From NCBI GenBank assembly GCA_949283695.1, contig CASDTX010000025.1, positions 1 to 64,000 of the forward strand: a DNA stretch of 64,000 bases. Reading direction: 5' to 3'. The DNA comes from an uncultured Eubacteriales bacterium (lineage in GTDB: Bacteria > Bacillota > Clostridia > Lachnospirales > Lachnospiraceae). The notes under the pieces are model-generated. The model had not been told where the DNA came from and ran no database searches. It saw only the letters and a list, made by a program, of their open reading frames with translations. Numbering within the stretch: position 1 is the first letter of the stretch; each line of letters begins with the position of its first letter. Shown here piece by piece: positions 2,151 through 56,651 of the stretch. The position numbers and the translations under genes were made by a program.

Positions 2151-2175
2151 AGCATCAATCAAAAAGGAATAAAAT

Positions 2176-3517: not shown

Positions 3518-3538
3518 GTATTATTAAAAGTTTTATAT

Positions 3539-3550: not shown

Positions 3551-3566
3551 TTAAAAGGAGGCGCTT

Positions 3567-5831: not shown

Positions 5832-5869
5832 GAATGAGGGGATGTTTCCGGCATATCTTAATGATCGGG

Positions 5870-6778
5870 TCAGGATTTCATATCGAGCGAAAGCTCTGCA
5901 AATATTTCCTGCAGCTGCTGCAAAAACTTTTCCGCAGCCTTAGAAAATATCTGATATCGTTTCCAGACGATGAAAGCAGGCGCATTTAATGTAGGAGACA
6001 GAGGGCGGAAGCAGAGACTGCTCCCTTCGGTGTGGATTAATTTATCTAAGGTAAGCGCATATCCCAGGCCTTCGTCTACAAGCAGGGAAGCATTAAAAAC
6101 AAGATTGTAAGTGGCCACAATATTTAATTTAGAGAGTTCCCTGTGCATCCAATTCAAAATATACGGATTATCTGATTTTTGATGAGATACGATCAGCGGT
6201 TTGTCCCACAGATCTTCGGGCCGGACAGACGCCTTCTGAGCCAGAGGGCAGTCCCGGCGCATCAGAACCCCCCATTTGTCTTTGATCGGGATGGGGATGG
6301 ACTCGTATTTTAGAGGATCAACGCTGCTGTATATAAGCCCGAAATCGATCAGTCCTTTATCCAGATATTCAAGAACATATTCTGCATTGCCGCTTGAGAT
6401 GTGGTAATGGATCTCGGGATAGCGTTCTTGAATTTTTTTGGCTGCTTTTGCCATGAGACGGACAATATCCGTCTCCCCTGTTCCGATATAGATATCGCCT
6501 ACGATTGTTTCGTCAGAATGTACGATTTCCTGTTCGGTTTTCTTGACAAGTGAGAGGATCTCCTCTGCCCGTTTGCGCAGAATCATCCCTTCTTCGGTTA
6601 ATGTCAGCTTGCGGGAGCCTTTCGTTCCGCGAATGAAAAGCTGCTTGCCCAGTTCTTCTTCCATGGCTTTGAGCTGAGTGGACAGTGTGGGCTGAGAGAG
6701 GTGCAGAGACTCTGCTGCTCCGGAAATGCTCTGTTCCCTTGCCACTGCTAAAAAATACTGCAGAACTCGAAGTTCCAT
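5870..6778 (-). CDS. LysR family transcriptional regulator
   Basis: This 302-residue LysR protein has a DNA-binding winged helix at residues 1-65 (AAESLHLSQPTLSTQLKAMEEELG) and an effector-binding domain from about 90 (VGDIYIGTGETDIVRLMAKAA) to the end. It is transcribed away from the 71-residue protein and DUF3737 genes, the classical arrangement for a LysR activator of a divergent operon. GAATTCCTCC-type sequence gives a ribosome site before the start. The effector is unknown. Confidence 0.93.
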   Translation of the reverse strand: MELRVLQYFLAVAREQSISGAAESLHLSQPTLSTQLKAMEEELGKQLFIRGTKGSRKLTLTEEGMILRKRAEEILSLVKKTEQEIVHSDETIVGDIYIGTGETDIVRLMAKAAKKIQERYPEIHYHISSGNAEYVLEYLDKGLIDFGLIYSSVDPLKYESIPIPIKDKWGVLMRRDCPLAQKASVRPEDLWDKPLIVSHQKSDNPYILNWMHRELSKLNIVATYNLVFNASLLVDEGLGYALTLDKLIHTEGSSLCFRPLSPTLNAPAFIVWKRYQIFSKAAEKFLQQLQEIFAELSLDMKS

Positions 6779-6884
6779 TCTGAATTCCTCCTTATCATGC
6801 TGTGATTATCGGTAGTGTCAGTGTAGTCAGTGTATCATGCACGAAGATAGGTTTCAACTATGGAATTGTATAAAATATAAATAT

Positions 6885-6913
6885 TTGCTATTCGATAAAG
6901 GTACGGCTATACT
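6885..6913 (+). promoter_or_regulatory. Promoter of the small protein/DUF3737 operon
   Basis: TTGCTA (6885-6890) and TATACT (6908-6913) are 17 bases apart. The AT-rich stretch just upstream (6856-6884) is where the divergent LysR regulator would be expected to bind. Confidence 0.6.
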
Positions 6914-6977
6914 GTAGATAAAGAACGATGATCAGGACTGATGGCGATGGAGAACTGAGGAAAGCGAGGAAACGACA

Positions 6978-7193
6978 GTGATCAAGAATTTTTCTGTTCA
7001 GGCAATCACTCAGAATTTAAAAGATGCCGGATGCGGTCCGGAAATGATAACAGAGTTCTTTGCTAAAAGCGGAAAGAAAGAAGAGCAGCTCAAACTGCTT
7101 GAAAAGCAGAGGACAGAACTTCTGGATCGGGTCCATAAAGAAGAGAAACGGATTGACTGTCTGGATTATCTTGTTTATCAAATGAAGAGATGA
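6978..7193 (+). CDS. Small helical protein of unknown function (71 residues)
   Basis: The sequence is short and almost wholly helical, with a charged second half (LLEKQRTELLDRVHKEEKRIDCLDYL) that looks like the C-terminal dimer helix of MerR-type regulators without their DNA-binding domain. The first half (IKNFSVQAITQNLKDAGCGPEMITEFF) could be a small helical fold. GAGGAAACGACAG precedes the ATG. It is co-directional with the DUF3737 gene, 89 bases downstream. A role as a small partner protein of the LysR regulator or of DUF3737 is only a guess. Confidence 0.7.
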   Translation: MIKNFSVQAITQNLKDAGCGPEMITEFFAKSGKKEEQLKLLEKQRTELLDRVHKEEKRIDCLDYLVYQMKR

Positions 7194-7282
7194 GGCAGAA
7201 GCTGCGGTCAGCACGGAGTGCGGCTATACAGATCGCGGAGCTGAAGGTTGGAAAGATTAGAGGAAGAAATGGAGGAAGTTCA

Positions 7283-8161
7283 ATGAAGATCATTCAAGGT
7301 CAGACATTTGATATGGAACGTGCTCTTTACGGGAGCCGCGCAGTAACAGTAAGGGAGTGCCGGTTTGACGGCCCGGCGGATGGAGAGAGCGCATTGAAGG
7401 AAAGTACAGATGTGCAGGCGGATCACTGCTTTTTTAACCTGCGGTATCCGTTCTGGCATGATAAGAACCTGCGGATCTCTGATTCGGAGATGACGGAATT
7501 GTGCCGGGCGGCACTGTGGTACTCCGAAGACATCACGATAACGGATACCAAGCTGCATGGAACCAAAGCACTGCGGGAGTGCAGCAGAGTGAACATGCAG
7601 CGCTGCGAGGTCATTTCTCCGGAATTCGGATGGTCCGTGCACGGTCTTGATATGGAAGACAGCACGGTGCAGAGTGAGTATTTTATGATGCGTTCGGACC
7701 ATCTGCATTTCAGAAATGTTCAGATGAAAGGGAAATATTCGTTCCAGTACATTGAGGATTCTGTCTTTGAGAATTGTATGTTTGATACCAAAGATGCATT
7801 CTGGCATGCGAAAAATATTGTAGTGCGGGACAGTGTAGTCAAGGGAGAGTACCTGGCATGGTATTGTGAGAATGTTACCTTTGAACGCTGCAAGATCATA
7901 GGAACGCAGCCGCTTTGCTACTGCAAAAACTTAAAACTCATTGACTGCGAAATGGAAGGAGCGGATTTCGCCTTCGAAAAGAGCGGAGTGCAGGCTGCAA
8001 TCCTTACACCGGTCATCAGCATCAAGAATCCTTATGCCGGACAGATTGTGGTCCCCGCGGTGGGCGAGATCATCCGGGATGATGAACAGGCGAAAGGGGA
8101 GATTATCATAAGCGGGCAGAACGTGGAGAAGGGCACAGATTGTAAGTGTGCCTGCGCATAG
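7283..8161 (+). CDS. DUF3737 family protein (right-handed beta-helix-like)
   Basis: The 292-residue protein matches the DUF3737 pattern: serial short repeats of the type F.NC.F......WH.KN...RDS, with paired aromatic and Cys positions (for example FWHDKNLRISDSEM and FWHAKNIVVRDSVV). This spacing suggests a parallel beta-helix of about 20-residue turns. There is no signal peptide, so it is cytosolic. ATG 7283 has GGAGG 8 bases upstream; an in-frame start at 7190 would add 31 residues without such a site. The biochemical function of the family is not known to me. Confidence 0.85.
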   Translation: MKIIQGQTFDMERALYGSRAVTVRECRFDGPADGESALKESTDVQADHCFFNLRYPFWHDKNLRISDSEMTELCRAALWYSEDITITDTKLHGTKALRECSRVNMQRCEVISPEFGWSVHGLDMEDSTVQSEYFMMRSDHLHFRNVQMKGKYSFQYIEDSVFENCMFDTKDAFWHAKNIVVRDSVVKGEYLAWYCENVTFERCKIIGTQPLCYCKNLKLIDCEMEGADFAFEKSGVQAAILTPVISIKNPYAGQIVVPAVGEIIRDDEQAKGEIIISGQNVEKGTDCKCACA

Positions 8162-8171
8162 CAGCCCGCCG

Positions 8172-8231
8172 GAAATAAGAAAGGAACCGATTTGAGATGA
8201 CTTGATTTCAAATCGGTTCCTTTCTTATTTC
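8172..8231. terminator. Bidirectional terminator between DUF3737 and glycosyltransferase genes
   Basis: A perfect 24-bp inverted repeat (8172-8195 with 8208-8231) has purine-rich AAATAAGAAAGGAA on one arm and T-rich TTCCTTTCTTATTT on the other. The two convergent genes end on either side, so it can stop transcription from both. Confidence 0.85.
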
Positions 8232-9169
8232 TATGAGGGGGAAGGGAAGCCTCCTTTTTTCTTGACGATATAGATGGGGCGCCTCTTACTCTCCATATAA
8301 TCTTTCGACATGTACTGCCCCAGGATTGAGAGAAACAGCATCTGGATTCCGTTGAGCGCCAGGATCAGGCAGACAAGCAGCAGAACAGCGGAAGACCGGT
8401 GCCCGGCAGTCAGGGCGGCAATCCCGGTGAATACGGCGGCAAGGATCAGGATCAAGGCAGTGGTTCCGGCCAGTGTGACGGGGGCTGAGGAAAATGACAG
8501 GATGCCGTCGCAGGCATAGCGGAACAGAGCGCGCAGACTCCATTTCGTCTCACCGGCAGTACGCGCGGCATTGTGGTAGGGAATCCATTTCGTGTCAAAT
8601 CCGACGAAAGAGAAAATCCCTTTCATGTACCGGTTATATTCTTTCAGTTCCAGGATGGAGTCTGCCATGGCCCGGTTTATCATGCGGAAATCCCCTTTCC
8701 CGTCGCCCATATCGAGGCGGCAGATTCTGCCGATCAGGTGATAGAAGGAACGGGAGAGAAAGGTGCGCAGCCGGTTCTCCCCGGTCCGGTCTTCCCGGAG
8801 TCCGGCGCAGCAGTCATAGCCTTCGGTCTTTACTACGCGGTACATCTCTTTTAGAAGCTCCGGCGGGTGCTGAAGGTCCGCATCCATGAAGACGCAGTAG
8901 TCGCCGGAAGCATTCTGCAGGCCGGCGTACATGGCGGCTTCCTTTCCGAAATTCCGTGAGAAAGAGATGTACCGGCACCGGCTGTCCATATAGGCAAAAC
9001 GCTGCAGAAGATCCGGAGTGTGGTCCTGGCTTCCGTCGTCTATGAACAGGAATTCACAGTCCGCTTCTGTGATTTCTTCCACCGCGTCTGATACCGCCCG
9101 GTAAAATGCGGGCAGCGCTTGCTCTTCGTTGTAACAGGGAACGATAATACTGATCAGATCTTGCTTCAT
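8231..9169 (-). CDS. GT2 glycosyltransferase (polyprenyl-phosphate sugar transferase, GtrB/DPM1-like)
   Basis: Predicted to move a sugar from a nucleotide donor to undecaprenyl phosphate on the inner membrane face. The N-terminal GT-A domain starts ISIIVPCYNEEQALPAF, carries the DDG motif (FLFIDDGSQDHT) and a DxD-type metal site in FMDADLQHP, and is followed by two C-terminal membrane helices (about 230-255 and 260-290). About 312 residues is usual for this class. I chose the start at 9169 (MKQDLISI) because AGGAGG lies just before it. It follows the YfhO-GtrA gene by one base; GtrA-type flippases commonly act with such enzymes. Confidence 0.9.
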   Translation of the reverse strand: MKQDLISIIVPCYNEEQALPAFYRAVSDAVEEITEADCEFLFIDDGSQDHTPDLLQRFAYMDSRCRYISFSRNFGKEAAMYAGLQNASGDYCVFMDADLQHPPELLKEMYRVVKTEGYDCCAGLREDRTGENRLRTFLSRSFYHLIGRICRLDMGDGKGDFRMINRAMADSILELKEYNRYMKGIFSFVGFDTKWIPYHNAARTAGETKWSLRALFRYACDGILSFSSAPVTLAGTTALILILAAVFTGIAALTAGHRSSAVLLLVCLILALNGIQMLFLSILGQYMSKDYMESKRRPIYIVKKKGGFPSPS

Positions 9170-9170
9170 G

Positions 9171-12074
9171 TCAAACCTCCTTTTTAAAAACACCATATTT
9201 ACAGAGAATATAATTGCCTGTCACAGTGACTGCACTGACCAGAAGCTTTGCCGGGAGCGGGAGGATCCGGACCTTGCTTATGAGAAGCCACAGCAGGATA
9301 TTTTCTGCCAGCAGAGTGAGGAAGCGCAGGCTGGCGAAAGAAAGGAATTCAGTCTTAACGTGTTTGTCTGAATGAAAGACCCATCTGCGGTTCAGTGTGT
9401 AGGCGGTCAGTACCGCTCCGATCCAGGCGAAACTGTTGGCGGCCAGATAGGGAACGTGCAGGAAGAGGAATCCTCCGAATAATACATAATTGACGGCGGT
9501 TGTCAGTCCGCCTGTAATCAGGTATGTGATGAATTCTTTCCTTCCGTGATCGATTCTTCCCCTGAGGGCCAGAATGAGATAGAGCACATATCCGGCTGCG
9601 GAGATGATGCTGATGATGCAGCCGGCTTCTTTCCCGGGCGGGGAAAAGCGGATCTCAATCTGGTGCGTCCCTTTGGTCAGCGGTGTTCCGGCGAACGCTT
9701 CATTCACGGTTACGAGCCTGGACGGTTCCCCATCCACGAGGATCTCAAGTCCATTCTGGAGTGGGATGGAAGTGGCCAGATAGCCGTCGTTTTCCGCCGT
9801 TACTGTGCCGGACAGGACCGATTCTGACGGTGTCTGCGTCAGCGGTGTATCGTTCTTTGGTGTCTGTTCCAGCGGCGTATCGTTCTTTGGTGTCTGCGTC
9901 AGCGGCGTAGCGTTCTTTGAGGTCAGCAGACTCCGGCTGTATCGATGCCACTGGGGATCTGAGATTTGATAATGCCCTTTGGAGAAGGTGACCGAGATCT
10001 TGGACACGCCTTCTTCCTCCCTGGAAGAGAACGCATATTCAAAGCGGCTGTTTTCATTGGGATAAGGAGCAAACGTACCGGATAACTTGTTCCGGATCCC
10101 GTTCATATCAATGACTGCGGCGCTGTGCGTCAGGCTCTTGATCTGAAAGGAAAGCAGTACGATATCCCCCGGGCTTGGGTTATGAATCATAAGATCCAGA
10201 GTACAGGTCTTGTCCGCCGTGATCTCCCAGGTGCTGCCGGCCTTCTCGATCTGCAGTCCGTCAGGGAGCGGGCCGGAAGAAAGTTCGGGAGTATAAGTAC
10301 GCATGAGTGTGGAGAGCGTATCAGTGGCTTCCTCTGTGGGTGCCCGGTTCGTAACAGAGGCGCTGTCTGTATCGTGGACGATGGTTTTTCTCGTGATGAG
10401 ATCCAGCTTTTCATAAGAATCCAGCTTCTGGAACTGAGTCTCAGGGACGGTATCGCCAGTAAAATACGCCATGGGAAGAACGTTCTTATTCTCTGCGAGG
10501 ACTGTATCCCCGGACTGAAAGATGACTTCGTAGCCCGCGGGCACGGCGTCTTCACTGGTCTCCAGATACCGAACGCCAAGGAGGGTCTGCAGGAACGGAT
10601 TTTCCGAGGAGAGCAGGGCAATGCGGTTGTTAATCCGAATTGGTGTCTTAAGTGTGCTGTAATAAAGATCAGAATAGTTCTGATTGGTTACGGAGGAGTA
10701 CATGGTGCTTCGCGTGACACCGTTTTTTGGCAGTTCGTTTCCGCTGTTAAGCGGCTCCAGCATACTGTCGAAATGATAGAGCGGCTCCATGTGTACGGCA
10801 TCCAGTTCTTCAGAAGTAAATCCGGCAGCTGTCTCAGACTGGCTGACCCAGTTCTCGGTTCCTGCGGTTGTAAGGCAGAGTCCGATGGGAGCGATCAGCA
10901 GCGCAAGCGGCAGACACGGCGCCGGATGAGAGTGCCGCCGTGCCAGCACATACAGGAAGAGAATACATGCATCTGCGATGATCCAGAAGAACTGCGGCTG
11001 ACGGAACCAGAGCAGGGCGACCGGAAAGATTGCGGCGAAGGGCCAGAGGGGGAGCCTGCCCTGTGTTTCTTTGAAGCAGCGGACGCAGTGGAGGACAATC
11101 AGCGGGAGGAAGGGGATCAGGATCTTCGGCCGGGCGTAGAGGGTGCCGTTCAATAACCAGGAGAAGCATCCGAACAATCCGAAGAGCAGGAAGAGGATGC
11201 TGTCCTGCCGGAACTCCTTTCGCATCAGCCCGCCCAGTATGGCATACAGACAGAGAAAGGTAAGTCCTACGCCGTATTCGTGAAAGAGCAGGTTGTTCAG
11301 CACCGGATTTGGGGCGAACAGCTCCACAAGTTTCCAGATCGTAAAGCTGCCGCCGGTTCTTCCATGCTCCAGCAATACGAGGGCTGTCGGGAGCAGGAGG
11401 GCTGCGCTGATCCCTGCGGCCAAAGCCGCGGAAGGAATATATTTCTTAAGGAAAGAGCCTTTCCAGAAACAACGGCCTTCTCTGCGGTACCAGTACCATC
11501 CGACAGCCGCGAAAGCGGAGATCGAGAAGTAGAAACTGCTCAGGCAGATGAGACTTAAGCAGGCGGGAAGAAGCCGGAATCGCCTTTTTCGCACACATAA
11601 GAGTGCCAGCAGAAGGAAAGGCAGGTAATTGACGAACATGACCTGGCGGTGCATATGAAAGAGACAGCCGGCGGTCATGAACAACACGCTTCCGACCAAT
11701 GCGGCAAAAGAGCTGAAATGTTCGCTGCGGAGCCAAACGTAGCAGAGCAGGGCCGATGTGAGATATACGGCAAGCATATAGCAGATGAGGATCTTGAGCA
11801 TCGGGACCTGAGGCAGCAGACAGCCGATCAGGATATCCGGGCGAAGGAAGCCGTAATAGGCGAACTGATACCCGCTGCTTCCTCCGCCGAGCCGGATCCA
11901 CGAAGGGAGGAGCGTGCGCTGTTCCAGGCAGGCATCACGGATCGTTTCCGCCAGAGTGACATGCTGGCTTAACCAGTCTGTATGTGAGCCGAATACAGAG
12001 CCTGAAGGGACCATGACAAAAATCAGTATGAGAAACAGGAATATAAGTGAGAGTGGGTATAATAATTTCTTCAT
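9171..12074 (-). CDS. YfhO-family membrane protein fused to a GtrA domain
   Basis: This 967-residue protein joins two units. Residues 1 to about 830 resemble YfhO: about a dozen N-terminal membrane helices in a GT-C-like arrangement, a large extracytoplasmic part (about 400-790), and a further helix near 820 (ISIISAAGYVLYLILAL). YfhO proteins glycosylate wall polymers using lipid-linked sugars. The last 130 residues (ITYLITGGLTTAVNYVLFGGFLFL and onward, ending YILCKYGVFKK) are a GtrA domain with four helices, thought to flip or position polyprenyl-sugar. With the GT2 gene just downstream this gives donor synthesis, flipping and transfer in one two-gene operon. The acceptor is unknown. Confidence 0.85.
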   Translation of the reverse strand: MKKLLYPLSLIFLFLILIFVMVPSGSVFGSHTDWLSQHVTLAETIRDACLEQRTLLPSWIRLGGGSSGYQFAYYGFLRPDILIGCLLPQVPMLKILICYMLAVYLTSALLCYVWLRSEHFSSFAALVGSVLFMTAGCLFHMHRQVMFVNYLPFLLLALLCVRKRRFRLLPACLSLICLSSFYFSISAFAAVGWYWYRREGRCFWKGSFLKKYIPSAALAAGISAALLLPTALVLLEHGRTGGSFTIWKLVELFAPNPVLNNLLFHEYGVGLTFLCLYAILGGLMRKEFRQDSILFLLFGLFGCFSWLLNGTLYARPKILIPFLPLIVLHCVRCFKETQGRLPLWPFAAIFPVALLWFRQPQFFWIIADACILFLYVLARRHSHPAPCLPLALLIAPIGLCLTTAGTENWVSQSETAAGFTSEELDAVHMEPLYHFDSMLEPLNSGNELPKNGVTRSTMYSSVTNQNYSDLYYSTLKTPIRINNRIALLSSENPFLQTLLGVRYLETSEDAVPAGYEVIFQSGDTVLAENKNVLPMAYFTGDTVPETQFQKLDSYEKLDLITRKTIVHDTDSASVTNRAPTEEATDTLSTLMRTYTPELSSGPLPDGLQIEKAGSTWEITADKTCTLDLMIHNPSPGDIVLLSFQIKSLTHSAAVIDMNGIRNKLSGTFAPYPNENSRFEYAFSSREEEGVSKISVTFSKGHYQISDPQWHRYSRSLLTSKNATPLTQTPKNDTPLEQTPKNDTPLTQTPSESVLSGTVTAENDGYLATSIPLQNGLEILVDGEPSRLVTVNEAFAGTPLTKGTHQIEIRFSPPGKEAGCIISIISAAGYVLYLILALRGRIDHGRKEFITYLITGGLTTAVNYVLFGGFLFLHVPYLAANSFAWIGAVLTAYTLNRRWVFHSDKHVKTEFLSFASLRFLTLLAENILLWLLISKVRILPLPAKLLVSAVTVTGNYILCKYGVFKKEV
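9831..9920 (-). repeat. Three 30-bp tandem repeats within the YfhO-GtrA gene
   Basis: Units at 9831-9860, 9861-9890 and 9891-9920 differ at only a few bases and encode the decapeptide pattern TPLTQTPKND three times in the extracytoplasmic part. Being in multiples of three codons, copy changes would keep the frame. It probably forms a flexible Thr/Pro linker. Confidence 0.9.
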
Positions 12075-48296: not shown

Positions 48297-48312
48297 AGAC
48301 AAACAGAGAAAA

Positions 48313-48339
48313 CTGCCAGCAGAACGCAGCTGCTGGCAG
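48313..48339 (-). terminator. Terminator of the enolase-superfamily gene
   Basis: CTGCCAGCAG (48313-48322) pairs with CTGCTGGCAG (48330-48339). On the minus strand it is followed by TTTTCTCTG, so it mainly serves the leftward gene. Confidence 0.75.
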
Positions 48340-48362
48340 ACAAATACGTTTACTTTCTGTTA

Positions 48363-49493
48363 TCAGAACGTCATCAGTGAGGCAGAGATGCCTGTCATGT
48401 CACAGCCGCCCAATTCCCGGATCGTCAGATCTGCAATTTCGTTCTCATCAAGTTCATATCCGAGGCCTGGTTTTACCGGAGCGTGCACGTAGCCGTCTTC
48501 GTCACAGCGGATAAGATCTTTCATTCCCTTATCAAACTGGTAGCCAAGGGGGACCGGAATTTCAAGATATTTGCAGTTATGGCTTGCCAGCATTACATGC
48601 AGATGCGCAGCCTGGATGGAAACCGGGCCATAGCTGTGGGACTCCAGATTTGTATCAAATACTTCGCTGATCACCGCCATGCGTCTGAGGGCGGAAATAC
48701 CGCCGGTAATATCACCGAAAGTGCGGATTGAGTCTACCGCATGTGTCTTCAGATAGTGTACCCAGCCTCTGATGCCTCCGGTATAGCTTTCCACCGCAGT
48801 AATCGGTATATTCAGTTTCGATTTCAGTTCAATGAGTCCCTGGATGTCTGAATCTGGAATCGGGGCTTCGTACCATTCGAAATTCAGTTCTTCAAGTACC
48901 TTTCCCAGCTTATACGCGTCAGCACGATTGTACCAGTTCATAGCGTCCAGCATGAGCGTGTAGTCCGGACCAAGAGCTTCGCGCAGGGCCCGGCACATCT
49001 CAATATCCCGCTGTAAATCTCCGATTCCATGTACTTTATAGGCCTTAAAGCCCTGTGCCTGACACTCTTTGGCCAGATCGATATATTCCTGATTGGTCTC
49101 GTAGCGCTGCGTACTGGCATAAGCTAAGATCTTGTCCCTTGTCGCACCAAGCAGTTTGTACACAGGCAGAGAATGGATCTTGCCAAGTAAGTCCCAAAGA
49201 GCGATATCAATTGCACTGGAGATGGGGCCGGGTTTTTCATACTTACTGGTAAGTGTCCATGTGATTTGCTCAACATTGTGCGGATCCTGTCCGACAATTA
49301 TTTTTTTGATTTTGGGCATGCGTTCTTCTAATCGTCCAATGCTCTCTATCATCCATGCCATACACTGCCCTTCAAGTCCTTCGTCGGTCTGAATGCGGAA
49401 TAGTACGCAGTTCGCTGCGAACGGCGGCCCCTCCCACCAGGTCAGAGGGCCGTAAGGTTCCAAAAGAGTACATTTTAGATCTGTAATTTTCAT
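48363..49493 (-). CDS. Mandelate racemase/muconate lactonizing enzyme family protein
   Basis: 376 residues, enolase superfamily. Catalytic K153 and H155 (KVH, a KxH motif), metal ligands D183 (LMLDAMN), E209 (WYEAP) and E235 (AVESY), and the D261-H286 dyad (FGDITGG, ESHSYGP) are all present, the mandelate racemase subgroup pattern. Such enzymes abstract a proton next to a carboxylate and mostly dehydrate acid sugars or hydroxy acids to 2-oxoacids. This fits the 2-oxoacid oxidation genes at 51794-54398. Substrate not known. GAGGAG lies before the start. Confidence 0.9.
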   Translation of the reverse strand: MKITDLKCTLLEPYGPLTWWEGPPFAANCVLFRIQTDEGLEGQCMAWMIESIGRLEERMPKIKKIIVGQDPHNVEQITWTLTSKYEKPGPISSAIDIALWDLLGKIHSLPVYKLLGATRDKILAYASTQRYETNQEYIDLAKECQAQGFKAYKVHGIGDLQRDIEMCRALREALGPDYTLMLDAMNWYNRADAYKLGKVLEELNFEWYEAPIPDSDIQGLIELKSKLNIPITAVESYTGGIRGWVHYLKTHAVDSIRTFGDITGGISALRRMAVISEVFDTNLESHSYGPVSIQAAHLHVMLASHNCKYLEIPVPLGYQFDKGMKDLIRCDEDGYVHAPVKPGLGYELDENEIADLTIRELGGCDMTGISASLMTF

Positions 49494-49514
49494 GAATTCT
49501 CCTCCTATCTGTTT

Positions 49515-49567
49515 TTTGGCGCCAAATAAGTTATTTGAATATTAGCATAACAAAATAGGAGTGTCAA
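49515..49567 (-). promoter_or_regulatory. Promoter and operator of the enolase-superfamily gene
   Basis: On the minus strand TTGACA (49567-49562) and TAATAT (49544-49539) are 17 bases apart. The 12-bp palindrome TTTGGCGCCAAA (49515-49526) lies just downstream, where a repressor such as the adjacent IclR protein would block transcription. Confidence 0.7.
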
Positions 49568-49604
49568 TTATATTTACAATAATATATAAAAATATTTACA
49601 TTAC

Positions 49605-50393
49605 TTATATCTTTGGGAGGGGGTGATATCCCATAAATAGTGATAAGCGCTGTGCGAAAATCTTTACTTCCCGGATTAAGTCCGCTTCTCCGGTATGATA
49701 AATTTCTTTTGATGTACTGAAGCTGACAGCCGCGATTACTTCACTGTTGTTGTCGTAGATCGGGGCAGCTACACACCACATATTGGCAGTGAATTCTCCC
49801 CGGTCTACGGAAAAACCGTCACGGACAATGTTCTGCAGCTCTTTCTGTAAATCCTGGTGCTTTACAATCGTAGATTCCGTGTATTTGGGGAGGTCATCCG
49901 CATTTAAGACAGAATCTTTTATGCTTTCCGGCGCGAAAGCAAGCAGAACTTTTCCGATTCCTGTTGCGTGAAGGGGAATCGGATATCCTTCCGGAAGCGG
50001 GATTAGTTCATTATTGGCAGACTTTGCTGCAAGCAGGATTCCTTTCCCGACGACGCTGATGATCCCCAGATGAATCGAGCAGTGATATTTGTTGCTGAGC
50101 GTTGGAATATTTTGCTCCAGTGCATGGACAACGGGGAAACTGTTGCGGTAAAGAGTTCCAAGCTCGTAGATATAACTTGTAATGCTGTATTTGGAATCTT
50201 CTGTTTTGGCGATATAGCCTCGTTTGGCCAGTGTATTCAGCAGATTATATGTGGTAACACGGTTGACTTCCAGCTGATTGCTGATCTCAGTTACCGTTTG
50301 AGGACGGCTGCAGCTTGACAGAAGTTCCAGAATATCCAGCGCCCGTTCTACAGAATTGATTGTTTTCACATTTATATTTTCTTGCGATTTCAT
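49605..50393 (-). CDS. IclR family transcriptional regulator
   Basis: 262 residues. N-terminal winged helix (about 12-70: SVERALDILELLSS, TVTEISNQLEVNRVTTYNLLNTLAKRGY) and the IclR effector domain (IHLGIISVVGKGILLAAKS, LPLHATGIGKVLLAF, RGEFTANMWCVAAPIYD). I start at ATG 50393 (MKSQEN), with GGGAGAAGTG upstream; the longer form from 50429 is less supported. It sits between the two arms of the catabolic module and probably senses its substrate or a 2-oxoacid. Confidence 0.93.
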   Translation of the reverse strand: MKSQENINVKTINSVERALDILELLSSCSRPQTVTEISNQLEVNRVTTYNLLNTLAKRGYIAKTEDSKYSITSYIYELGTLYRNSFPVVHALEQNIPTLSNKYHCSIHLGIISVVGKGILLAAKSANNELIPLPEGYPIPLHATGIGKVLLAFAPESIKDSVLNADDLPKYTESTIVKHQDLQKELQNIVRDGFSVDRGEFTANMWCVAAPIYDNNSEVIAAVSFSTSKEIYHTGEADLIREVKIFAQRLSLFMGYHPLPKI

Positions 50394-50524
50394 AATCACT
50401 TCTCCCTTCCTGAAATTACCAATATACATGTCACATTATAGAAATTACAATACTACAATATGGAAAAACCGTCAATCAGGAATGACAGCATATTTATTAG
50501 ACGGAGAAATAAAAAGATTATTAT

Positions 50525-50573
50525 GTGTAAAATATATTGACATTAGTGTAAATAATTGTTAATATCAGTGCAA
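50525..50573 (+). promoter_or_regulatory. Promoter of the transporter-Kor-Ptb-Buk operon with phased direct repeats
   Basis: TTGACA (50537-50542) and TAATAT (50560-50565) are 17 bases apart. The hexamers GTGTAA, GTGTAA and GTGCAA start at 50525, 50546 and 50568, 21 and 22 bases apart, which puts them on one face of the helix across the whole promoter. A regulator, perhaps the divergent IclR, could bind them. Confidence 0.75.
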
Positions 50574-50599
50574 ATAAACCATACGAAAGGAAGGAGAAC

Positions 50600-51775
50600 A
50601 TGGAAAACAAAAACAAACAAAAGCCGAATCTGAAACTATCGTACGAGTTAGCGTCTGTTTGGTTCGGGGCGCATGTAGGACCGGGCTTTGCAACAGGAGC
50701 CATGCTGTGCATGTATTTTACAAGCTGCGGATGGAATGCACTGTGGATGCCGATTGTCACGATGGCGTTGGAAGGAATCGTATTTTATTCTGCGATGGAA
50801 ATGGCAAGGACGCACAAAGCATTTACGTACAGAAAAGTAGTAGATGCGATCTTTCACCCGTTTCATAAGGTGTTGGGCCCGTTGATTGATTTTATTACCT
50901 GCTGGACTGGATTTTTGGGACTGGGCGTTACATTTGCGGCATGCGGATCGAGTTTGAACTCTCTGTTTGGCTGGCCGAAGATGATCGGAAATATTTTAAT
51001 GGCGGTAGCCAGCGTCCTGATCGCCCTTTATGGACAGAAGCTGGTGAGAAAAGTATCGGGCGGACTGTCTATCTGTCTGCTCGCAGTACTGTCGATTACC
51101 TGTATTGTTACGATTGTTTCCCAGTGGGATACGATTGCGGGATACATATCTTCCCGATATGTGCCGGAAGGAATTGATGGAAAACAGATTTTTATGTTTA
51201 TCATTTTATATTGTGCGTTTTGTTCCGGACATTCCAATCATGTAGTGGCATGCAGCGATGCGATTTCCAATGAAAAGGAGTCCCGATGGGCGGCTGTATT
51301 TGGAACATTGATGAATGGATGCATGATGACGCTGATTGTGCTGTCTATGCTGGCATATATTCCGGATGTTTTCGGCATGGATTCGCCCTTTGTCTACACG
51401 CTGGGACAGACATTCCCAAGCGGCGTGACGATTATTTATGCAGTGTTCCTGAATCTTGCGCTGATATCCTCCGGTGTCACCATAGTATTTGGTCTGGCAA
51501 AAAGAGCACAGGAATGGGTGCCTCAGAGCGTGAAGAAAGAGTCCACGCGGCTGCTGATCCCTTCAGTCCTGTTTTCAGTGGCAGGAATCCTGGTATCTTC
51601 TATGGGATTATATGGGATTTTTTCTGGTCCGTTTAAATATAACAATTACGTATATATATTCATTTTAGTGATTCCATATATTTTTATTGCACCCTTCCGA
51701 TACCGCAGAAAGCAAAAAGAACTGGATGAACAGAGCCTGGCAAAAGAGCCGGACGGACAGATTCAGCAGAACTAG
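50600..51775 (+). CDS. YkvI-like membrane transporter
   Basis: 391 residues with about ten membrane segments. The start (ASVWFGAHVGPGFATGAMLCMYF) has the unwound Gly-rich helix 1 of the APC/LeuT-type fold, and the overall pattern resembles the YkvI family. It probably takes up the acid metabolised by the downstream enzymes. First gene of the operon; AAGGAAGGAG precedes ATG 50600. The C-terminal tail is hydrophilic (about 368-391). Substrate not known. Confidence 0.75.
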   Translation: MENKNKQKPNLKLSYELASVWFGAHVGPGFATGAMLCMYFTSCGWNALWMPIVTMALEGIVFYSAMEMARTHKAFTYRKVVDAIFHPFHKVLGPLIDFITCWTGFLGLGVTFAACGSSLNSLFGWPKMIGNILMAVASVLIALYGQKLVRKVSGGLSICLLAVLSITCIVTIVSQWDTIAGYISSRYVPEGIDGKQIFMFIILYCAFCSGHSNHVVACSDAISNEKESRWAAVFGTLMNGCMMTLIVLSMLAYIPDVFGMDSPFVYTLGQTFPSGVTIIYAVFLNLALISSGVTIVFGLAKRAQEWVPQSVKKESTRLLIPSVLFSVAGILVSSMGLYGIFSGPFKYNNYVYIFILVIPYIFIAPFRYRRKQKELDEQSLAKEPDGQIQQN

Positions 51776-51793
51776 AAGGGACAGGATACGGCT

Positions 51794-52009
51794 ATGAGAA
51801 AAGTAATAATCATCGAAGAAAAATGTAAGAGCTGCGGATACTGTATCGCGGTATGTCCCAAGAGGATCCTGGAAGCAGGCGAACAGGTCAATCAGATGGG
51901 ATATCGGTACATTACAGTTACATCCGACCAGGAATGCATTTCCTGCAAGGCGTGCGCGACGATTTGTCCGGAGGCGGCAATCGAGCTGTGGAAGCAGCCG
52001 GAGATGTGA
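51794..52009 (+). CDS. 2-oxoacid:ferredoxin oxidoreductase, delta (4Fe-4S) subunit
   Basis: 71-residue ferredoxin-like subunit with two [4Fe-4S] motifs: C11/C14/C17/C21 (CKSCGYCIAVCP) and C48/C51/C54/C58 (CISCKACATICP). It takes electrons from the alpha-beta core. The four subunits lie in the order delta-alpha-beta-gamma (51794-54398), usual for Kor/Vor enzymes. KorD-type by context. Confidence 0.93.
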   Translation: MRKVIIIEEKCKSCGYCIAVCPKRILEAGEQVNQMGYRYITVTSDQECISCKACATICPEAAIELWKQPEM

Positions 52010-52048
52010 CGTCAGTTTGAAAAATATTTGCAGGCAGAAAGGAGTACT

Positions 52049-53122
52049 ATGAGACAGCGTGAATTTATGAAAGGATGCGAGGCAATCGCAGAAGCAGCGG
52101 TCAGAAGCGGCTGCCGCTTTTTCGCAGGCTATCCGATCACACCTCAGAATGAAGTGCCGGAATACTTCTCGTGGAGGCTTCCGCAGGTAGGGGGAAGCTT
52201 CGTACAGGCAGAAAGCGAGGTGGCTGCAATCAATATGGTTTACGGGGCGGCATCTACAGGAACACTGGCCATGACTTCCTCCTCCAGTCCGGGAATCAGT
52301 CTGAAGACAGAAGGAATTTCCTATCTGGCAGCGGCCCGGATACCGGCAGTGATTATGAATGTGCAGAGAGGCGGCCCCGGGATCGGCACGATCTCAGCGG
52401 CTCAGTCAGACTACTTTCAGGCAGTGAAAGCTCCGGGACATGGGGGATTCAACTGTATGGTATTCTCTCCCGCAACGGTCCAGGAAACGGTGGATTTGAT
52501 TCCAGTTGCGTTCGAGAAATCACAGAGAGACAGGAATCCGGTTCTTATGTTGATTGACGGCTGCATCGGGGCGATCATGGAACCTGTTGTGCTGCCCGAG
52601 ATGCGGGAGTTAGAGGATCAGAGGGACAAAGGCTGGGAACTGACCGGCTGCAGAGGCCGGGAAGGCAGATGCCTGAAACCATATGTTTTAAATATGGAAG
52701 AAGTAGAGATCCGCAGCCAGGAGAGAACCAAAATGTATGAGAAATGGGAAAAAGAAGATACATTGGTCGAGGAATTCGGTCTCCAGGATGCAGAAATTGT
52801 ATTGACTGGCTACGGTACAGCTGCCAGAATCGCGAAATCCGTGGTGAAGAAACTGCGGGAAAAGGGCAAGAAGGCAGGGATGATACGGCCGGTGACCGTA
52901 AGCCCATTCCCGAAAGCATCTTTCCGGAAGCTGTCCGGCGGTCCGGCGAAGCTGGTGATTGATATTGAGATGACCGATCCCGGACAGATGCTGGATGATG
53001 TACGGATTGCGGCCGAGGGAAGCGTTCCTGTGGAATTCCTGGGATATGCGAGCGGGATCGTTCCGACGGACAGCAGTATGCTTCAGAGGGTGGAAGCAAT
53101 CTTAGAAAGGAGGCATCTGTAG
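52049..53122 (+). CDS. 2-oxoacid:ferredoxin oxidoreductase, alpha subunit
   Basis: 357 residues. N-terminal pyrimidine-binding domain (GCRFFAGYPITPQNEVPEYF at about 21-40; MTSSSSPGISLKTEGISYLAA near 78-98; QRGGPGIGT) and a C-terminal transketolase-like domain (VLTGYGTAARIAKSVV). The YPITP motif and the size match the VorB/KorA group for branched-chain or other 2-oxoacids. ATG 52049 has GAAAGGAG upstream. Substrate choice among 2-oxoacids cannot be read from sequence. Confidence 0.92.
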   Translation: MRQREFMKGCEAIAEAAVRSGCRFFAGYPITPQNEVPEYFSWRLPQVGGSFVQAESEVAAINMVYGAASTGTLAMTSSSSPGISLKTEGISYLAAARIPAVIMNVQRGGPGIGTISAAQSDYFQAVKAPGHGGFNCMVFSPATVQETVDLIPVAFEKSQRDRNPVLMLIDGCIGAIMEPVVLPEMRELEDQRDKGWELTGCRGREGRCLKPYVLNMEEVEIRSQERTKMYEKWEKEDTLVEEFGLQDAEIVLTGYGTAARIAKSVVKKLREKGKKAGMIRPVTVSPFPKASFRKLSGGPAKLVIDIEMTDPGQMLDDVRIAAEGSVPVEFLGYASGIVPTDSSMLQRVEAILERRHL

Positions 53123-53123
53123 G

Positions 53124-53867
53124 ATGAAACAGATCGTAAAACATCCTGACGCAATCAGCAGGAAGCCCTCCGGATATTGTCCGGGGTGTATGCACTCCAC
53201 AGCTAATAAAATCATAGCAGAAGTTCTGGAAGAAATGCAGATGACAGAGAACGCGGTCGGAGTGTTCCCGGTAGGATGCGCAGTGCTGAGCGCTACCTAT
53301 TTTACTGCTGACCGGATTATTGCGGCACACGGGCGGGCAGCCGCGGTTGCCACAGGGATTAAGAGGAGCCGGCCGAAGATGCTGGTATTTACCTATCAGG
53401 GAGACGGCGATTTGAGTTCCATTGGCATGGCCGAGACGATACATGCAGCGAACCGCGGGGAAAATATTACGGTTATTTTTATCAACAACAGTATTTATGG
53501 AATGACAGGCGGTCAGATGTCCCCGACGACTCTGGAGGGACAGAAAGCGACGACCTGTATCTATGGACGGGATCCGGCGACGATGGGATATCCGATCAAA
53601 ATGTGCGAATTACTGAATCAGCTCCAGGCCCCCAAATATATTGCCCGTTTTTCGCTGGACTCAGTAGCGCATATCAATCAGGCGAAGAAAGGGATCCGGA
53701 AAGCGTTCGAGATGCAGTTAGGGCAAAAGGGCTACGCGTTCATCGAGCTTCTGACAAATTGCCCTACGAACTGGAAGATGACGCCGACAGATACATGGAA
53801 ATTCATGCAGGAAAAGACGATGAAAGAGTTCCCGATCGGGGAATTCAGAAACAGAATCGAGGGATAA
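53124..53867 (+). CDS. 2-oxoacid:ferredoxin oxidoreductase, beta subunit
   Basis: 247 residues, the TPP-binding half: CPGCMHST at about 19-26, GDGDLSSIGMAETIHAANRG near 94-113 and FINNSIYGMTGGQMSPT near 119-135 (Mg-TPP motif GDGD...NN). It follows alpha by one base, so the two are coupled. With alpha it makes acyl-CoA, CO2 and reduced ferredoxin from a 2-oxoacid. Confidence 0.94.
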   Translation: MKQIVKHPDAISRKPSGYCPGCMHSTANKIIAEVLEEMQMTENAVGVFPVGCAVLSATYFTADRIIAAHGRAAAVATGIKRSRPKMLVFTYQGDGDLSSIGMAETIHAANRGENITVIFINNSIYGMTGGQMSPTTLEGQKATTCIYGRDPATMGYPIKMCELLNQLQAPKYIARFSLDSVAHINQAKKGIRKAFEMQLGQKGYAFIELLTNCPTNWKMTPTDTWKFMQEKTMKEFPIGEFRNRIEG

Positions 53868-53870
53868 GCT

Positions 53871-54398
53871 ATGGAACGGAGAATATTGATTGCCGGATTC
53901 GGCGGGCAGGGAGTCATGCTGATGGGACAGTTAATGGGACATGCCGCCTGTATAGAAGATAAGGAAGTAATCTTCCTTCCTACATATGGAGCAGAACAGC
54001 GCGGCGGCACGGCGAACTGTACTGTCATTATCAGCGATGAACCGATAGGCTCGGCAAATGTGGACAAATTTGATATTGTTGTCGCGATGAATGAACCTTC
54101 TTTTGAAAAATATAAAAACGCATTAAATCCAGAAGGAACCCTGATTGTAAACAGTGACTTTGTCTCTTCTGTACAGGAGACGTACCGGCAGATTGCCGTG
54201 CCGGCGGAACAGCTGGCAGCTCAGGCGGGCTCACTGAAAACGATCAATATGATCATGCTGGGGGTGCTGGCAAAGGTCAGCGGCGTCATCACCCTGGAAG
54301 GGTTAAGCGGGGCGGTACAGAAGAAACTGGCGAAAAAAGCGGAAATGCTGGAATGGAACATCAAGGCGATTCAGAGCGGTTTCTCCTATGTTGACTGA
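53871..54398 (+). CDS. 2-oxoacid:ferredoxin oxidoreductase, gamma subunit
   Basis: 175 residues with GFGGQGVMLMGQLMG near the start and TYGAEQRGGTANCTVIIS near 42-59, the CoA-binding gamma domain of the family. It lies 3 bases after beta. It completes the four-subunit enzyme. Confidence 0.94.
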   Translation: MERRILIAGFGGQGVMLMGQLMGHAACIEDKEVIFLPTYGAEQRGGTANCTVIISDEPIGSANVDKFDIVVAMNEPSFEKYKNALNPEGTLIVNSDFVSSVQETYRQIAVPAEQLAAQAGSLKTINMIMLGVLAKVSGVITLEGLSGAVQKKLAKKAEMLEWNIKAIQSGFSYVD

Positions 54399-54412
54399 AA
54401 GAGGGATGTGAA

Positions 54413-55324
54413 ATGTATTACAAAAATTTTCAGGAGTTCAATCAAAAGATACTGAGGCATGGAAAGGCCATAAAGATGGCAGTGGTCTGCGCAGATGACG
54501 TACACAGTGTTGACGGGGCTATGCTTGGGGCAGCCAGCGGACTGATTGAACCCATCCTGATTGGAAACAGAAACAAGATTGAACCAATCTTAGAACAGCA
54601 TGGATATGAGCAAAGACCGCAGATAATCCATGCAGAAAGCAAAGAAGACGCGCTGGAGGCATTTGTGAAATTAAATCAGGAGTGTACGCTGGGAGCTGTC
54701 ATGAAAGGGCTGATCGAGACTCCCCTTCTGATGAAAACGATCCTGAAAAAGGAAAACGGACTGAGGACGGAAAGATACATGTCACATTTCGCTCTTTTTG
54801 AGATCCCCGGCTATCACAAATTGATGGGAATTACGGATATTGCGCTGGCGATTCAGCCTTCGTTTGAAGAGAAAATTTCTATTATAAAAAATGCAGTGGA
54901 TTACATGAATCAAATCGGAATCTCTCCGGTGAAGACAGCAGTTTTGACCGCCTTTGAAAAGGTAAATCCAAAGATGCAGGATACTGTGGACGCAGAAAAA
55001 CTGACGGAAATGTACCGGCAGGGAGAGTTCCCAAACGCGATCATTGAAGGTCCGATCTCTTATGACATCATGTGGTCGGACGAAGCGGCGCGCGTGAAAC
55101 AGACGGATTCGAAGATCGCAGGAGACACGGATCTGCTGGTGATGCCCAATCTGACAAGCGGCAATTTTCTCGCGAAAGCTTTGGGACTTACCATGGGGGC
55201 AAAATCTGCAGGGATCGTATTGGGCGCAAAAATCCCAATCGTCATGGTCTCACGGTCGTCAGATGAGGAAGTGAAGCTTCAGTCCATCGCGATGGCATGT
55301 GCTGCTGCGATGAAAGAGGGATAG
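54413..55324 (+). CDS. ptb: Phosphate butyryltransferase-like acyltransferase
   Basis: Converts acyl-CoA and phosphate to acyl-phosphate and CoA. 303 residues of the PTA/PTB family, with MGITDIALAIQPS near 142-154, VLTAFEKVNPKMQDTVDA near 181-198, and the terminal LVMPNLTSGNFLAKAL / SAGIVLGAKIPIVMVSRSSDEEVK signature. Next to butyrate kinase it forms the ATP-yielding end of the module; the natural acyl group may be branched or other short chain. Confidence 0.92.
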   Translation: MYYKNFQEFNQKILRHGKAIKMAVVCADDVHSVDGAMLGAASGLIEPILIGNRNKIEPILEQHGYEQRPQIIHAESKEDALEAFVKLNQECTLGAVMKGLIETPLLMKTILKKENGLRTERYMSHFALFEIPGYHKLMGITDIALAIQPSFEEKISIIKNAVDYMNQIGISPVKTAVLTAFEKVNPKMQDTVDAEKLTEMYRQGEFPNAIIEGPISYDIMWSDEAARVKQTDSKIAGDTDLLVMPNLTSGNFLAKALGLTMGAKSAGIVLGAKIPIVMVSRSSDEEVKLQSIAMACAAAMKEG

Positions 55325-55327
55325 AAT

Positions 55328-56404
55328 ATGAACAATAGGGAGAAAGAAAAAATTCTTGTGATTAATCCAGGGTCTACCAGTACTAAAATTGCGCTGTATG
55401 AGAATCAGAAACAAGTGCTGAACCATACCTTTCACTATACAGCCGAACAGCTTTCTGCATATAAAGGAATCATGGAACAATTTCCCATGCGGTGCAGAGA
55501 GATCGAGAACCTCCTGACAGAAGAAGGGGTTGACCTGGAAGATTTCTCTGCGGTAGCGGGAAGGGGCGGCGCACTGCCTCCCCTGAAAAGCGGAGCATAT
55601 GAAGTAAACAAAGGCATGCTCGATTATATGAGAAATCTGAAAGTTGGTACCCATGCTTCAAGTCTGGGGGCGTTTTTGGCGGATTATTTTGCAGGAAGAG
55701 CAGGGGTAAAAGCGTACATTTATGACGGGCCGACTGTATATGAGATGACAGAAGTGGCTCAGCTGACAGGAATAAAAGGACTTTACAGGAAAACCTCTGT
55801 CCATGTACTAAATATGAGAGCAGCTGTAAGGAAGGCGGCAGAATCCCTGCAAAAGGCGATCCAGGATGTAAACATGGTAGGCGTGCATCTGGGCGGCGGA
55901 ATCACATTGGCGGCCTTCCAGAAGGGACGCATGGTAGACGCACTGAATGATTCAGAAGGCCCTATGGCGCCGGAACGTGCCGGGCGGATGCCGTCTACGG
56001 ACTTCCTGAAATATTATTCCAGGAGCGGACTGGATATTGTGGAAATGGACAGGATTCTCCGGGGAGGCGGAGGACTGACCTCCTGGCTGAATACGAACAG
56101 TGCCCTGGAAGTAGAACGGAGGATTGAGGAAGGCGATCAAGAGGCAGCACTGGTCTATGATGCAATGTGTTACCAGGTGTCGAAATGTATCGGAGAAATG
56201 GCGGTAGCGCTTGACGGTGTGAAAGACGCGATCGTAATTACGGGCAGCATAGCCAACTCGCAATATGTCACAGAATCGATACGGAAAAGGGTAGAATTCA
56301 TTGCGCCGGTCATTCTTGTGCCGGGAGAGAATGAAATGGATGCGCTGGCAGCAGGCGTATCCAGGGTCCTGAGAGGTGAGGAGCAGGTCCACCTCTTTCA
56401 ATAA
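55328..56404 (+). CDS. buk: Butyrate kinase-like acid kinase
   Basis: Transfers phosphate from acyl-phosphate to ADP. 358 residues of the acetokinase fold, with ILVINPGSTSTKIALYEN near the start, RGGALPPLKSGAYEVN near 78-93, GVHLGGGITLAA near 188-199 and DAIVITGSIANSQYV near 302-316. It is 3 bases after ptb, completing acyl-CoA to acid with ATP gain. Last gene of the operon. Confidence 0.94.
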   Translation: MNNREKEKILVINPGSTSTKIALYENQKQVLNHTFHYTAEQLSAYKGIMEQFPMRCREIENLLTEEGVDLEDFSAVAGRGGALPPLKSGAYEVNKGMLDYMRNLKVGTHASSLGAFLADYFAGRAGVKAYIYDGPTVYEMTEVAQLTGIKGLYRKTSVHVLNMRAAVRKAAESLQKAIQDVNMVGVHLGGGITLAAFQKGRMVDALNDSEGPMAPERAGRMPSTDFLKYYSRSGLDIVEMDRILRGGGGLTSWLNTNSALEVERRIEEGDQEAALVYDAMCYQVSKCIGEMAVALDGVKDAIVITGSIANSQYVTESIRKRVEFIAPVILVPGENEMDALAAGVSRVLRGEEQVHLFQ

Positions 56405-56412
56405 AGCAGCAT

Positions 56413-56457
56413 AGCGTCAGTGTGCAGGGGCAGCACGGTCTCTTGTACACTGACGCT
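56413..56457 (+). terminator. Stem-loop after buk
   Basis: AGCGTCAGTGT (56413-56423) pairs perfectly with ACACTGACGCT (56447-56457). There is no T run after it, but it lies 9 bases past the buk stop codon. Confidence 0.55.
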
Positions 56458-56473
56458 GCCATTGATAAAACGA

Positions 56474-56506
56474 TAGCCGGGGAAAAGACTTCCCCGGCTA
56501 AAAAAA
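56474..56506 (-). terminator. Terminator of tRNA-Val
   Basis: TAGCCGGGGAA and TTCCCCGGCTA (outer arms within 56474-56500) form a strong hairpin. On the minus strand it follows the tRNA and leads into TCGTTTTATC; A/T-rich sequence lies on both sides, so it may work in both directions. Confidence 0.7.
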
Positions 56507-56510
56507 TAAA

Positions 56511-56584
56511 TGGAAGCAATGGGGCTCGAACCCATGACCTCTCGCGTGTGAGGCGAACGCTCATCCCAGCTGAGCTATGCTTCC
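56511..56584 (-). tRNA. tRNA-Val (CAC)
   Basis: On the minus strand acceptor GGAAGCA pairs with TGCTTCC, the D arm is GCTCAGCTGGGATGAGC, the anticodon loop CTCACAC gives CAC, and the T loop is GTTCGAGCC. Discriminator A. Length 74. Confidence 0.95.
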
Positions 56585-56651
56585 ATGCCAATTATTATAT
56601 CACTCCTGACAGAAAATGCAAGGCAAAAATGATTGCCTTGCATCTGAACGG

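Follow-up and report, generated by a model that had tools for sequence, protein, structure and literature searches.

Gene Content of the Locus

A 64,000-nucleotide stretch of DNA from an uncultured Eubacteriales bacterium of the Lachnospiraceae (assembly GCA_949283695.1, contig CASDTX010000025.1, positions 1 to 64,000; hereafter the window) carries nine genes in two divergent arms, which bring an enolase-superfamily enzyme together with a 2-oxoacid:ferredoxin oxidoreductase (Kor), a phosphotransacylase, and an acid kinase. The window's genome, G000, is 2.9 Mb long in 66 contigs and 79% complete (other genomes compared here are numbered with G, and stretches taken from genomes with L). On the minus strand lie the gene of the enolase-superfamily (MR/MLE) enzyme, a proposed dehydratase (48363..49493), and that of an IclR-family regulator (49605..50429; PF01614 and PF09339 above gathering). 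The plus-strand arm, in which the gaps between genes are only 1 to 39 bases, begins with a membrane protein that we propose to be a carboxylate transporter (50600..51775). It continues with a two-cluster ferredoxin, or Kor delta subunit (51794..52009; PF00037 and others above gathering; TIGR02179 38.9 bits, under the 60.05 cut-off), and the Kor/Vor alpha subunit (52049..53122; NF005507 440.9 bits, cut-off 399), beta (thiamine pyrophosphate) subunit (53124..53867; PF02775 above gathering; TIGR02177 117.8 bits, under the 261.9 cut-off), and gamma subunit (53871..54398; PF01558 above gathering; TIGR02175 94 bits, cut-off 81.1). The arm ends with a Ptb-like phosphotransacylase (54413..55324; PF01515 above gathering) and an acid kinase of the butyrate kinase family, Buk (55328..56404).

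All four subunits of a Kor of the VOR/KOR type are thus present side by side, with alpha and gamma passing the curated models NF005507 and TIGR02175, and beta and the ferredoxin passing Pfam models only. The kinase meets the cut-off of the butyrate kinase family (TIGR02707, 396 vs. 289.1 bits). The Ptb-like enzyme falls under the strict phosphate butyryltransferase equivalog (TIGR02706, 259.4 bits, cut-off 410.5), and meets the wider PTA_PTB family. No aminotransferase or amino-acid dehydrogenase is present among the nine genes, and seeds for an ELFV dehydrogenase, a class-I aminotransferase, and a threonine dehydratase (one each) had no match within 5 kb of the window Kor. There is likewise no sugar-acid kinase or aldolase in the module, a search that did not extend to the remainder of the genome.

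A prior sequence-only reading had named most of these genes, placed them at 48363..56404, and pointed out the missing sugar-acid kinase and aldolase. The frame coordinates and the Pfam and NCBIfam matches uphold the positions and families that it gave, with two adjustments: the borders of the insert described below are slightly wider (about 48297-56509), and the ferredoxin at 51794-52009 had gone unlisted as a separate gene. The membrane protein called a transporter is present, and transport is its proposed role.

An Apparent Single Unit at a tRNA-Val Gene

The nine genes fill exactly the space from a TetR gene (stop at 48296) to a tRNA-Val gene (cac; 56510..56585, minus strand; identified by ARAGORN), which forms the right border of the insert and lies outside the module; the whole cassette therefore spans 48297..56509. 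Comparison of this site with stretches from ten relatives revealed the full empty order, DegV, TetR, tRNA-Val, and MATE consecutively, in three genomes of the same genus (G033, L142; G041, L147; and G032, L148), with TetR and tRNA-Val about 100 bases or fewer apart. Among the other seven, DegV adjoins the tRNA without a TetR match in L143, a different insert occupies the site in L144, and L149 is a 2.2-kb contig end in which a TetR fragment adjoins tRNA-Val in an odd order. In L145, L146, L150, and L151 (the last only 2.1 kb) MATE is present without DegV, TetR, or tRNA-Val. That the genes form one unit is supported by the same site being empty in three relatives.

The cassette would be most simply explained as gained by one insertion, which is simpler than many losses because matches to the enolase-superfamily enzyme at 1e-40 within the genus were confined to G000 and G026. 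The tRNA-Val site seems to be an integration hotspot, since the insert at the same tRNA-Val in L144 (G022, 3950-10480) has a short integrase-like frame and a repeated tRNA end (both by eye). A search for a repeat of the tRNA-Val 3' end where the window module begins on its left side gave only matches of 8-10 bases besides the tRNA edge.

What may be a trace of such a cassette is present in a second genus. In G329 (L020, L027, and L035) both Buk and the enolase gene are represented by their C-terminal halves (residues 173-358 and 189-376, respectively), which abut head to head (L020, 9443-10567), each 81% identical to its counterpart in the window and in surroundings that differ from those of the window. 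This puts both cassette ends together in another genus, and looks as if the middle had been lost, by natural deletion or through an assembly artefact.

A Double Box Shared by the Two Arms

Each arm is preceded by a promoter-like site of the form TTGACA-17-TAATAT with TG, at 49539..49567 (minus strand) for the enolase arm and 50537..50565 (plus strand) for the transporter/Kor arm, although the consensus scan that located them gave 14 sites overall vs. 12.5 in shuffles, i.e., no excess. Both upstream regions also contain an operator-like direct double box, TGYAAATA-N14-TGYAAATA, with a 22-base period. In the enolase arm it has the form TGTAAATA-N14-TGTAAATA and lies upstream of the -35 element (49571..49600, minus strand), and in the transporter arm it has the form TGTAAATA-N14-TGCAAATA and overlaps the promoter-like site (50547..50576, plus strand).

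The boxes were assessed by pattern search and by shuffling, for which 111 bases upstream of the enolase gene were compared with the 170 bases between the IclR and transporter genes. The best ungapped 36-base match between these regions was 26/36, a value that none of 100 shuffle pairs reached; the match against the reverse complement was also 26 (0/100 shuffles). With 41 bases, 2/100 shuffles were as high (reverse 0). Exact matches to the box number two in the window (expected 0.00), with two more at up to two mismatches (5897 and 17441), and two in the whole genome, both at the cassette, vs. none for a reversed-pattern control. A pattern of this length would seldom arise by chance in any case, and the weight lies with the shuffle test. 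The IclR protein would be the binder of these boxes. The sequence-only reading had considered the case that the two arms are not co-regulated; the shared operator-like box, which suggests that they may be, argues against it.

The Enolase-Superfamily Enzyme and the Membrane Protein

Both the N- and C-terminal MR_MLE domains of the enzyme score above gathering (PF02746, 49.3 bits; PF13378, 147.2 bits). Alignments placed in it K153-x-H155, which we take to be the Lys-x-Lys/His motif of strand 2; D183, E209, and E235, presumably the acidic metal ligands; and H286, presumably the His of the His-Asp dyad. The three acidic residues align with those of PDB 1rvk and are kept in the relatives from G026 and G564, the E235 column being Gly in G127 and G103 and the D183 column Glu in G221. 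The nearest solved sequences (PDB 4jhm, 1rvk, and 4hcd; E 3e-47 to 9e-47) each show the second-strand K-x-H when aligned with the window enzyme, but 4jhm, unlike that enzyme, has no Glu at the E235 column of its alignment. We propose that the enzyme is a dehydratase, although by its sequence it may also be a racemase or isomerase.

A motif around residues 259 and 261, RT[FL]GD[IF], is common to the window enzyme and its relatives in G026 and G564, and hints that these may form a subfamily of their own. Along with the loop of residues 15-25 (GPLTWWEGPPF), it might also weakly hint at a hydrophobic pocket. The enzyme is rare, being matched in 7/146 relatives' genomes at 1e-40, in 2/397 genomes of the family at 1e-70, and at 1e-60 in 5/392 of the order, 1/391 of the class, and 1/109 of the phylum (overlapping sets, each count including the window's own genome). 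A scan of the genome contigs with the single protein gave one relative. Because the subfamily is this rare, no broad co-occurrence statistic is available for it.

Neither a Pfam or NCBIfam model nor a solved structure (best E 0.22) was matched by the membrane protein, and relatives at 1e-30 were found in 11/146 genomes, the window's own included. Eleven stretches with relatives of 25-29% identity were read by eye. The relative lies beside 2-hydroxyacyl-CoA-dehydratase-like genes in L126 and L134, beside these and a CoA-transferase-like gene in L129, and beside CoA-lyase and CaiB-like genes in L125; in L135 a Kor gamma match is about 8 kb away. Nothing was drawn from the other six stretches. 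A carboxylate transporter is at most a fair guess from such company.

Recurrence of Putative Dehydratases Beside Kor

The enolase gene recurs with Kor in G026, another species of the same genus, in which it is 46% identical to that of the window. There, one strand carries in succession a ferredoxin, Vor alpha, beta, and gamma, an ADP-forming acyl-CoA synthetase (ACD), two GPH symporters, the enolase gene, an OYE-type flavin reductase, and a tautomerase-like protein. The G026 alpha subunit scores under the VorB cut-off (343 of 399), and its ADP-forming synthetase does in one step the work of Ptb plus Buk. The empty site, the shared double box, and this recurrence show that the arrangement in the window is more than chance adjacency, and the nine genes are a real, coherent cassette that very likely serves one pathway.

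A survey of 58 genomes of the genus with Kor alpha as the query (1e-50) located five Kor places in four genomes, and all 5/5 have a hydroxy-acid dehydratase within 5 kb: enolase type in two (the window and G026), AcnX in two, and IlvD in one. The same logic is present with other DEHYDRATASES, three unrelated superfamilies (enolase, IlvD, and AcnX) standing beside Kor. The IlvD-family place, in G001, also has genes for ketopantoate-reductase-like and LarA-type racemase-like proteins and for an ADP-forming synthetase, along with a gene whose product is related to the window transporter at 21% identity. The AcnX places, a second locus of the window genome (on contig C46) and one in G020, both have a BCCT transporter and an ADP-forming synthetase.

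In a sample of the family, 33/250 genomes matched Kor at 1e-60, and the 45 places that lay in genomes other than the window's were all taken, as 43 loci. A dehydratase match within 5 kb was found at 3/45 (L098, L110, and L115). The contrast between genus and family is a guide and not a test: the dehydratase seeds were drawn from the loci being counted, the AcnX pair is similar in make-up, L124 represents only a fragment, and the contig ends within reach of the Kor in some stretches. Of the three, L115 (G245) has enolase-family and galactonate-type genes (by eye) beside Kor on the opposite strand with no ATP-forming gene near, and was treated as a chance neighbour, while L098 has a distant enolase-family gene and no ATP-forming gene, and was not used. 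L110 (G221), counted through a UxaA-type gene and with its enolase-family gene about 7 kb from Kor, is kept only as a lead, because the DapA-type gene there could encode an aldolase.

An ATP-forming or CoA-transferase gene lies within 5 kb at 26/50 Kor places; six of these 26 have a dehydratase, eight an amino-acid dehydrogenase, aminotransferase, or threonine dehydratase, twelve neither, and none both. A different account of the window genes is that they are an ordinary module for oxidation of branched-chain or aromatic amino acids (or of an imported 2-oxoacid) with its own transporter, the enolase-family protein being a side enzyme such as a racemase of a 2-hydroxy acid or of an amino-acid derivative. 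Kor-Ptb-Buk trios do serve tyrosine and branched-chain oxidation (PMC13285125, PMC13290082); L118 and L120 combine Kor, Ptb, Buk, and IclR without a dehydratase; and the closest relatives of the window Kor (L082-L089, alpha 51-57% identical) gave no match to a hydroxy-acid dehydratase within 5 kb. We nevertheless regard this account as unlikely, given that the insert is without an aminotransferase or amino-acid dehydrogenase, that the shared box links the enolase arm to the Kor arm, and that the enolase gene recurs with Kor in G026.

A dedicated Kor clade of the window and G026 was sought in a tree of 45 rows and was not found. The Kor of the window joins a set of ten from Lachnospiraceae (100/95) as an outside branch, and those of G026, G001, and G221 form one group (100/98) joined by L117 of G245 (97/91). 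In the G221 cluster, genes on one strand encode an enolase-type protein (closest to gluconate/galactonate dehydratase, under the cut-off), TAXI-TRAP, a DapA-type protein, a LacI-like protein (by eye), Buk, a PduL-like protein, Kor, two GarD/UxaA-type proteins, and a LarA-like protein; L117 has ketopantoate-reductase-like and CoA-transferase-like proteins and TAXI-TRAP. These neighbours indicate that the G026/G001/G221 Kor group keeps company with organic-acid genes, the window Kor being outside that group.

It could also be that the enzyme belongs to the usual sugar-acid pathway, yielding a 2-keto-3-deoxy acid whose main fate is cleavage by aldolases encoded elsewhere, with Kor-Ptb-Buk handling a side product or another 2-oxoacid. 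This seems to us distinctly improbable, as neither the insert nor the Kor runs of G026 and G001 contain an aldolase or kinase, and Ptb-Buk would be an odd choice for acetyl-CoA. Points in its favour are the best NCBIfam neighbours of the enzyme, which are arabinonate and galactonate dehydratases; an aldolase-like gene (by eye) on the G026 contig, some 10 kb upstream of Kor; and the DapA-type gene of the G221 cluster, which is of the same type as the aldolase GudL (PMC11775122).

Proposed Pathway and Substrate

We think it probable that the genes form a catabolic cassette by which a hydroxy acid is taken up, dehydrated, and fermented, ATP being gained as a shorter acid is formed. This would resemble the fermentation of certain amino acids, though the starting compound is probably of another kind. 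The transporter (50600-51775) would import a 2,3-dihydroxy (or polyhydroxy) acid, from which the enolase-superfamily enzyme would remove the alpha proton and the beta hydroxyl. The enol would collapse to a 2-oxoacid, and the four-subunit Kor (51794-54398) would convert this to acyl-CoA and CO2 with reduction of ferredoxin. The Ptb-like and Buk-like enzymes would carry acyl-CoA through acyl phosphate to the acid and ATP, and the IclR regulator would govern both arms via the common double box. The direction of the pathway and its ATP gain would follow the known Kor-Ptb-Buk trio. Gene content, presence or absence as a unit, the shared box, and recurrence with Kor are matters of direct evidence; transport, dehydration, the IclR protein as binder, and the substrate are what we infer. 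A scheme of this kind had been put forward in the sequence-only reading, and it gains partial support from the presence and absence of the genes as one unit, the shared box, the recurrence with Kor and a different ATP-forming enzyme, and the analogous clusters with unrelated dehydratases.

Several observations weigh against this interpretation. With respect to the enzyme, its chemistry may differ, since the column of the usual dyad Asp holds Phe259, with Asp261 two residues on and only His286 in its column, and the enzyme reached no NCBIfam cut-off for a characterised acid-sugar dehydratase (best 129 of 650 bits). No Kor match was found in the fetched stretches of its relatives in G564 (about 42% identical), G127, G103, G597, G129, G076, and G091, the one in G564 adjoining apparent LacI and TRAP genes (by eye). 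Upstream of the run on the G026 contig there are dehydrogenases and a class-II aldolase (all by eye) and a 2-hydroxyacid-dehydrogenase-like gene, and the window and G026 Kors are not sisters, so that either the pairing has two origins or there was an exchange of partners. With respect to insertion, the G+C content of the module (47.8%) is close to that of its 5-kb flanks (50.8 and 49.0%) and so does not mark it as foreign, and absence in the relatives could formally reflect loss instead of gain. The box pattern was written after the fact from the same two sites that it matches exactly, and shuffles were not beaten over 24 bases (7/100 as high; reverse 7) or 18 bases (33/100; reverse 6). The box is also absent from the G026, G001, G221, G564, and G329 loci.

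The substrate might be a rather hydrophobic or branched 2,3-dihydroxy acid, for example 2,3-dihydroxyisovalerate (to isobutyrate) or an aryl analogue, a suggestion that we make with low confidence. It is based on Kor alpha passing the VorB model and on the loop of residues 15-25, and both clues are weak because VOR-type enzymes that prefer aryl substrates are known (main text of PMC13285125). In place of the short dihydroxy acid put forward in the sequence-only reading, a larger sugar acid may also serve as substrate.

Relation to Known Systems

The combination of a 2-oxoacid:ferredoxin oxidoreductase (OFOR), a phosphotransacylase, and an acid kinase has been established for tyrosine in Clostridium scatologenes (HpdDEFG-HpdJ-HpdK), and similar trios are described as widespread in anaerobic Firmicutes, with other amino acids suggested as feed (main text of PMC13285125). 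Like the cassette, the Hpd system has a VOR-related OFOR, a phosphotransacylase, and an acid kinase, and gains reduced ferredoxin and ATP; unlike our proposal, it is fed by an amino acid, as given there. A term search of that main text returned no occurrence of dehydratase, hydroxy acid, enolase, sugar acid, IclR, or racemase. In the gut acetogens Blautia hydrogenotrophica and Intestinibacter bartlettii, OFOR loci likewise co-occur with Ptb and Buk homologs, but they have aminotransferases alongside and are assigned to amino-acid oxidation (PMC13290082), unlike the cassette. The gud/gar oxidised-sugar pathway of Enterocloster clostridioformis places acid-sugar dehydratases in a gut commensal, as in our proposal, but proceeds by aldolase and reductase according to the main text of PMC11775122, in which neither 'ferredoxin' nor 'butyrate kinase' occurs.

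Searches of the open-access literature, to which most subscription papers do not belong, gave no account of an enolase-superfamily or other hydroxy-acid dehydratase feeding a Kor-Ptb-Buk trio. Within the reach of these searches, the prior suggestion that the combination is undescribed can be kept for the dehydratase feed, which is the new part. The Kor-Ptb-Buk half is of a known kind, described for amino-acid oxidation (PMC13285125, PMC13290082).

Kor-Ptb-Buk clusters of anaerobic Firmicutes are currently read as amino-acid fermentation. If dehydratases supply some of them, hydroxy acids may be the source of a share of the branched or aryl acids that such bacteria form, and gene context would make it possible to test directly which substrate is used by an orphan branch of the enolase superfamily. 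More broadly, a class of fermentation cassettes may have gone unrecognised in the Lachnospiraceae. In these, Kor would be fed by dehydratases of hydroxy acids that are unrelated yet interchangeable (enolase type, IlvD/Edd, AcnX, and perhaps GarD/UxaA type) and would be followed by ATP-forming steps that are interchangeable as well (Ptb-Buk, ADP-forming synthetase, or PduL-Buk), which would make up a non-aldolytic route that shortens hydroxy and sugar acids by one carbon. We consider this a serious possibility, if somewhat short of an even chance.

Other Kor, Ptb, and Buk Loci

The second Kor locus of the window genome (L045, contig C46, 6915-18600; compare L048 and L119) has AcnX, a PhzF-like gene, a BCCT transporter, an ADP-forming synthetase, and an Xaa-Pro-dipeptidase-like amidohydrolase; L119, with a Kor close to that of C46, has no AcnX match. 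The best NCBIfam neighbour of the C46 AcnX is cis-3-hydroxyproline dehydratase, under the cut-off. Speculatively, this locus could possibly convert hydroxyproline or a proline betaine via 5-amino-2-oxovalerate to gamma-aminobutyrate with ATP. In G001 (L047, 4779-15816) the IlvD-like, Kor, ketopantoate-reductase-like, ADP-forming synthetase, transporter, and LarA-like genes lie between pyrF and pyrE (by eye). Eight Kor places at 1e-60 with differing neighbours were found in G245 (L104, L106, L108, L113, L115, L116, L117, and L118), which is perhaps a specialist in 2-oxoacid oxidation. In L084 (G275, 1363-9754), Kor is accompanied by Buk, a Ptb-like gene, a fumarylacetoacetate-hydrolase-family gene, a transaldolase-like gene (weak Pfam match), and a split transketolase (by eye), and another non-amino-acid supplier is possible there. 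Lastly, the window genome has a second Ptb-like/Buk pair, with an OYE-type reductase, on contig C38 (L046, 6988-12291).

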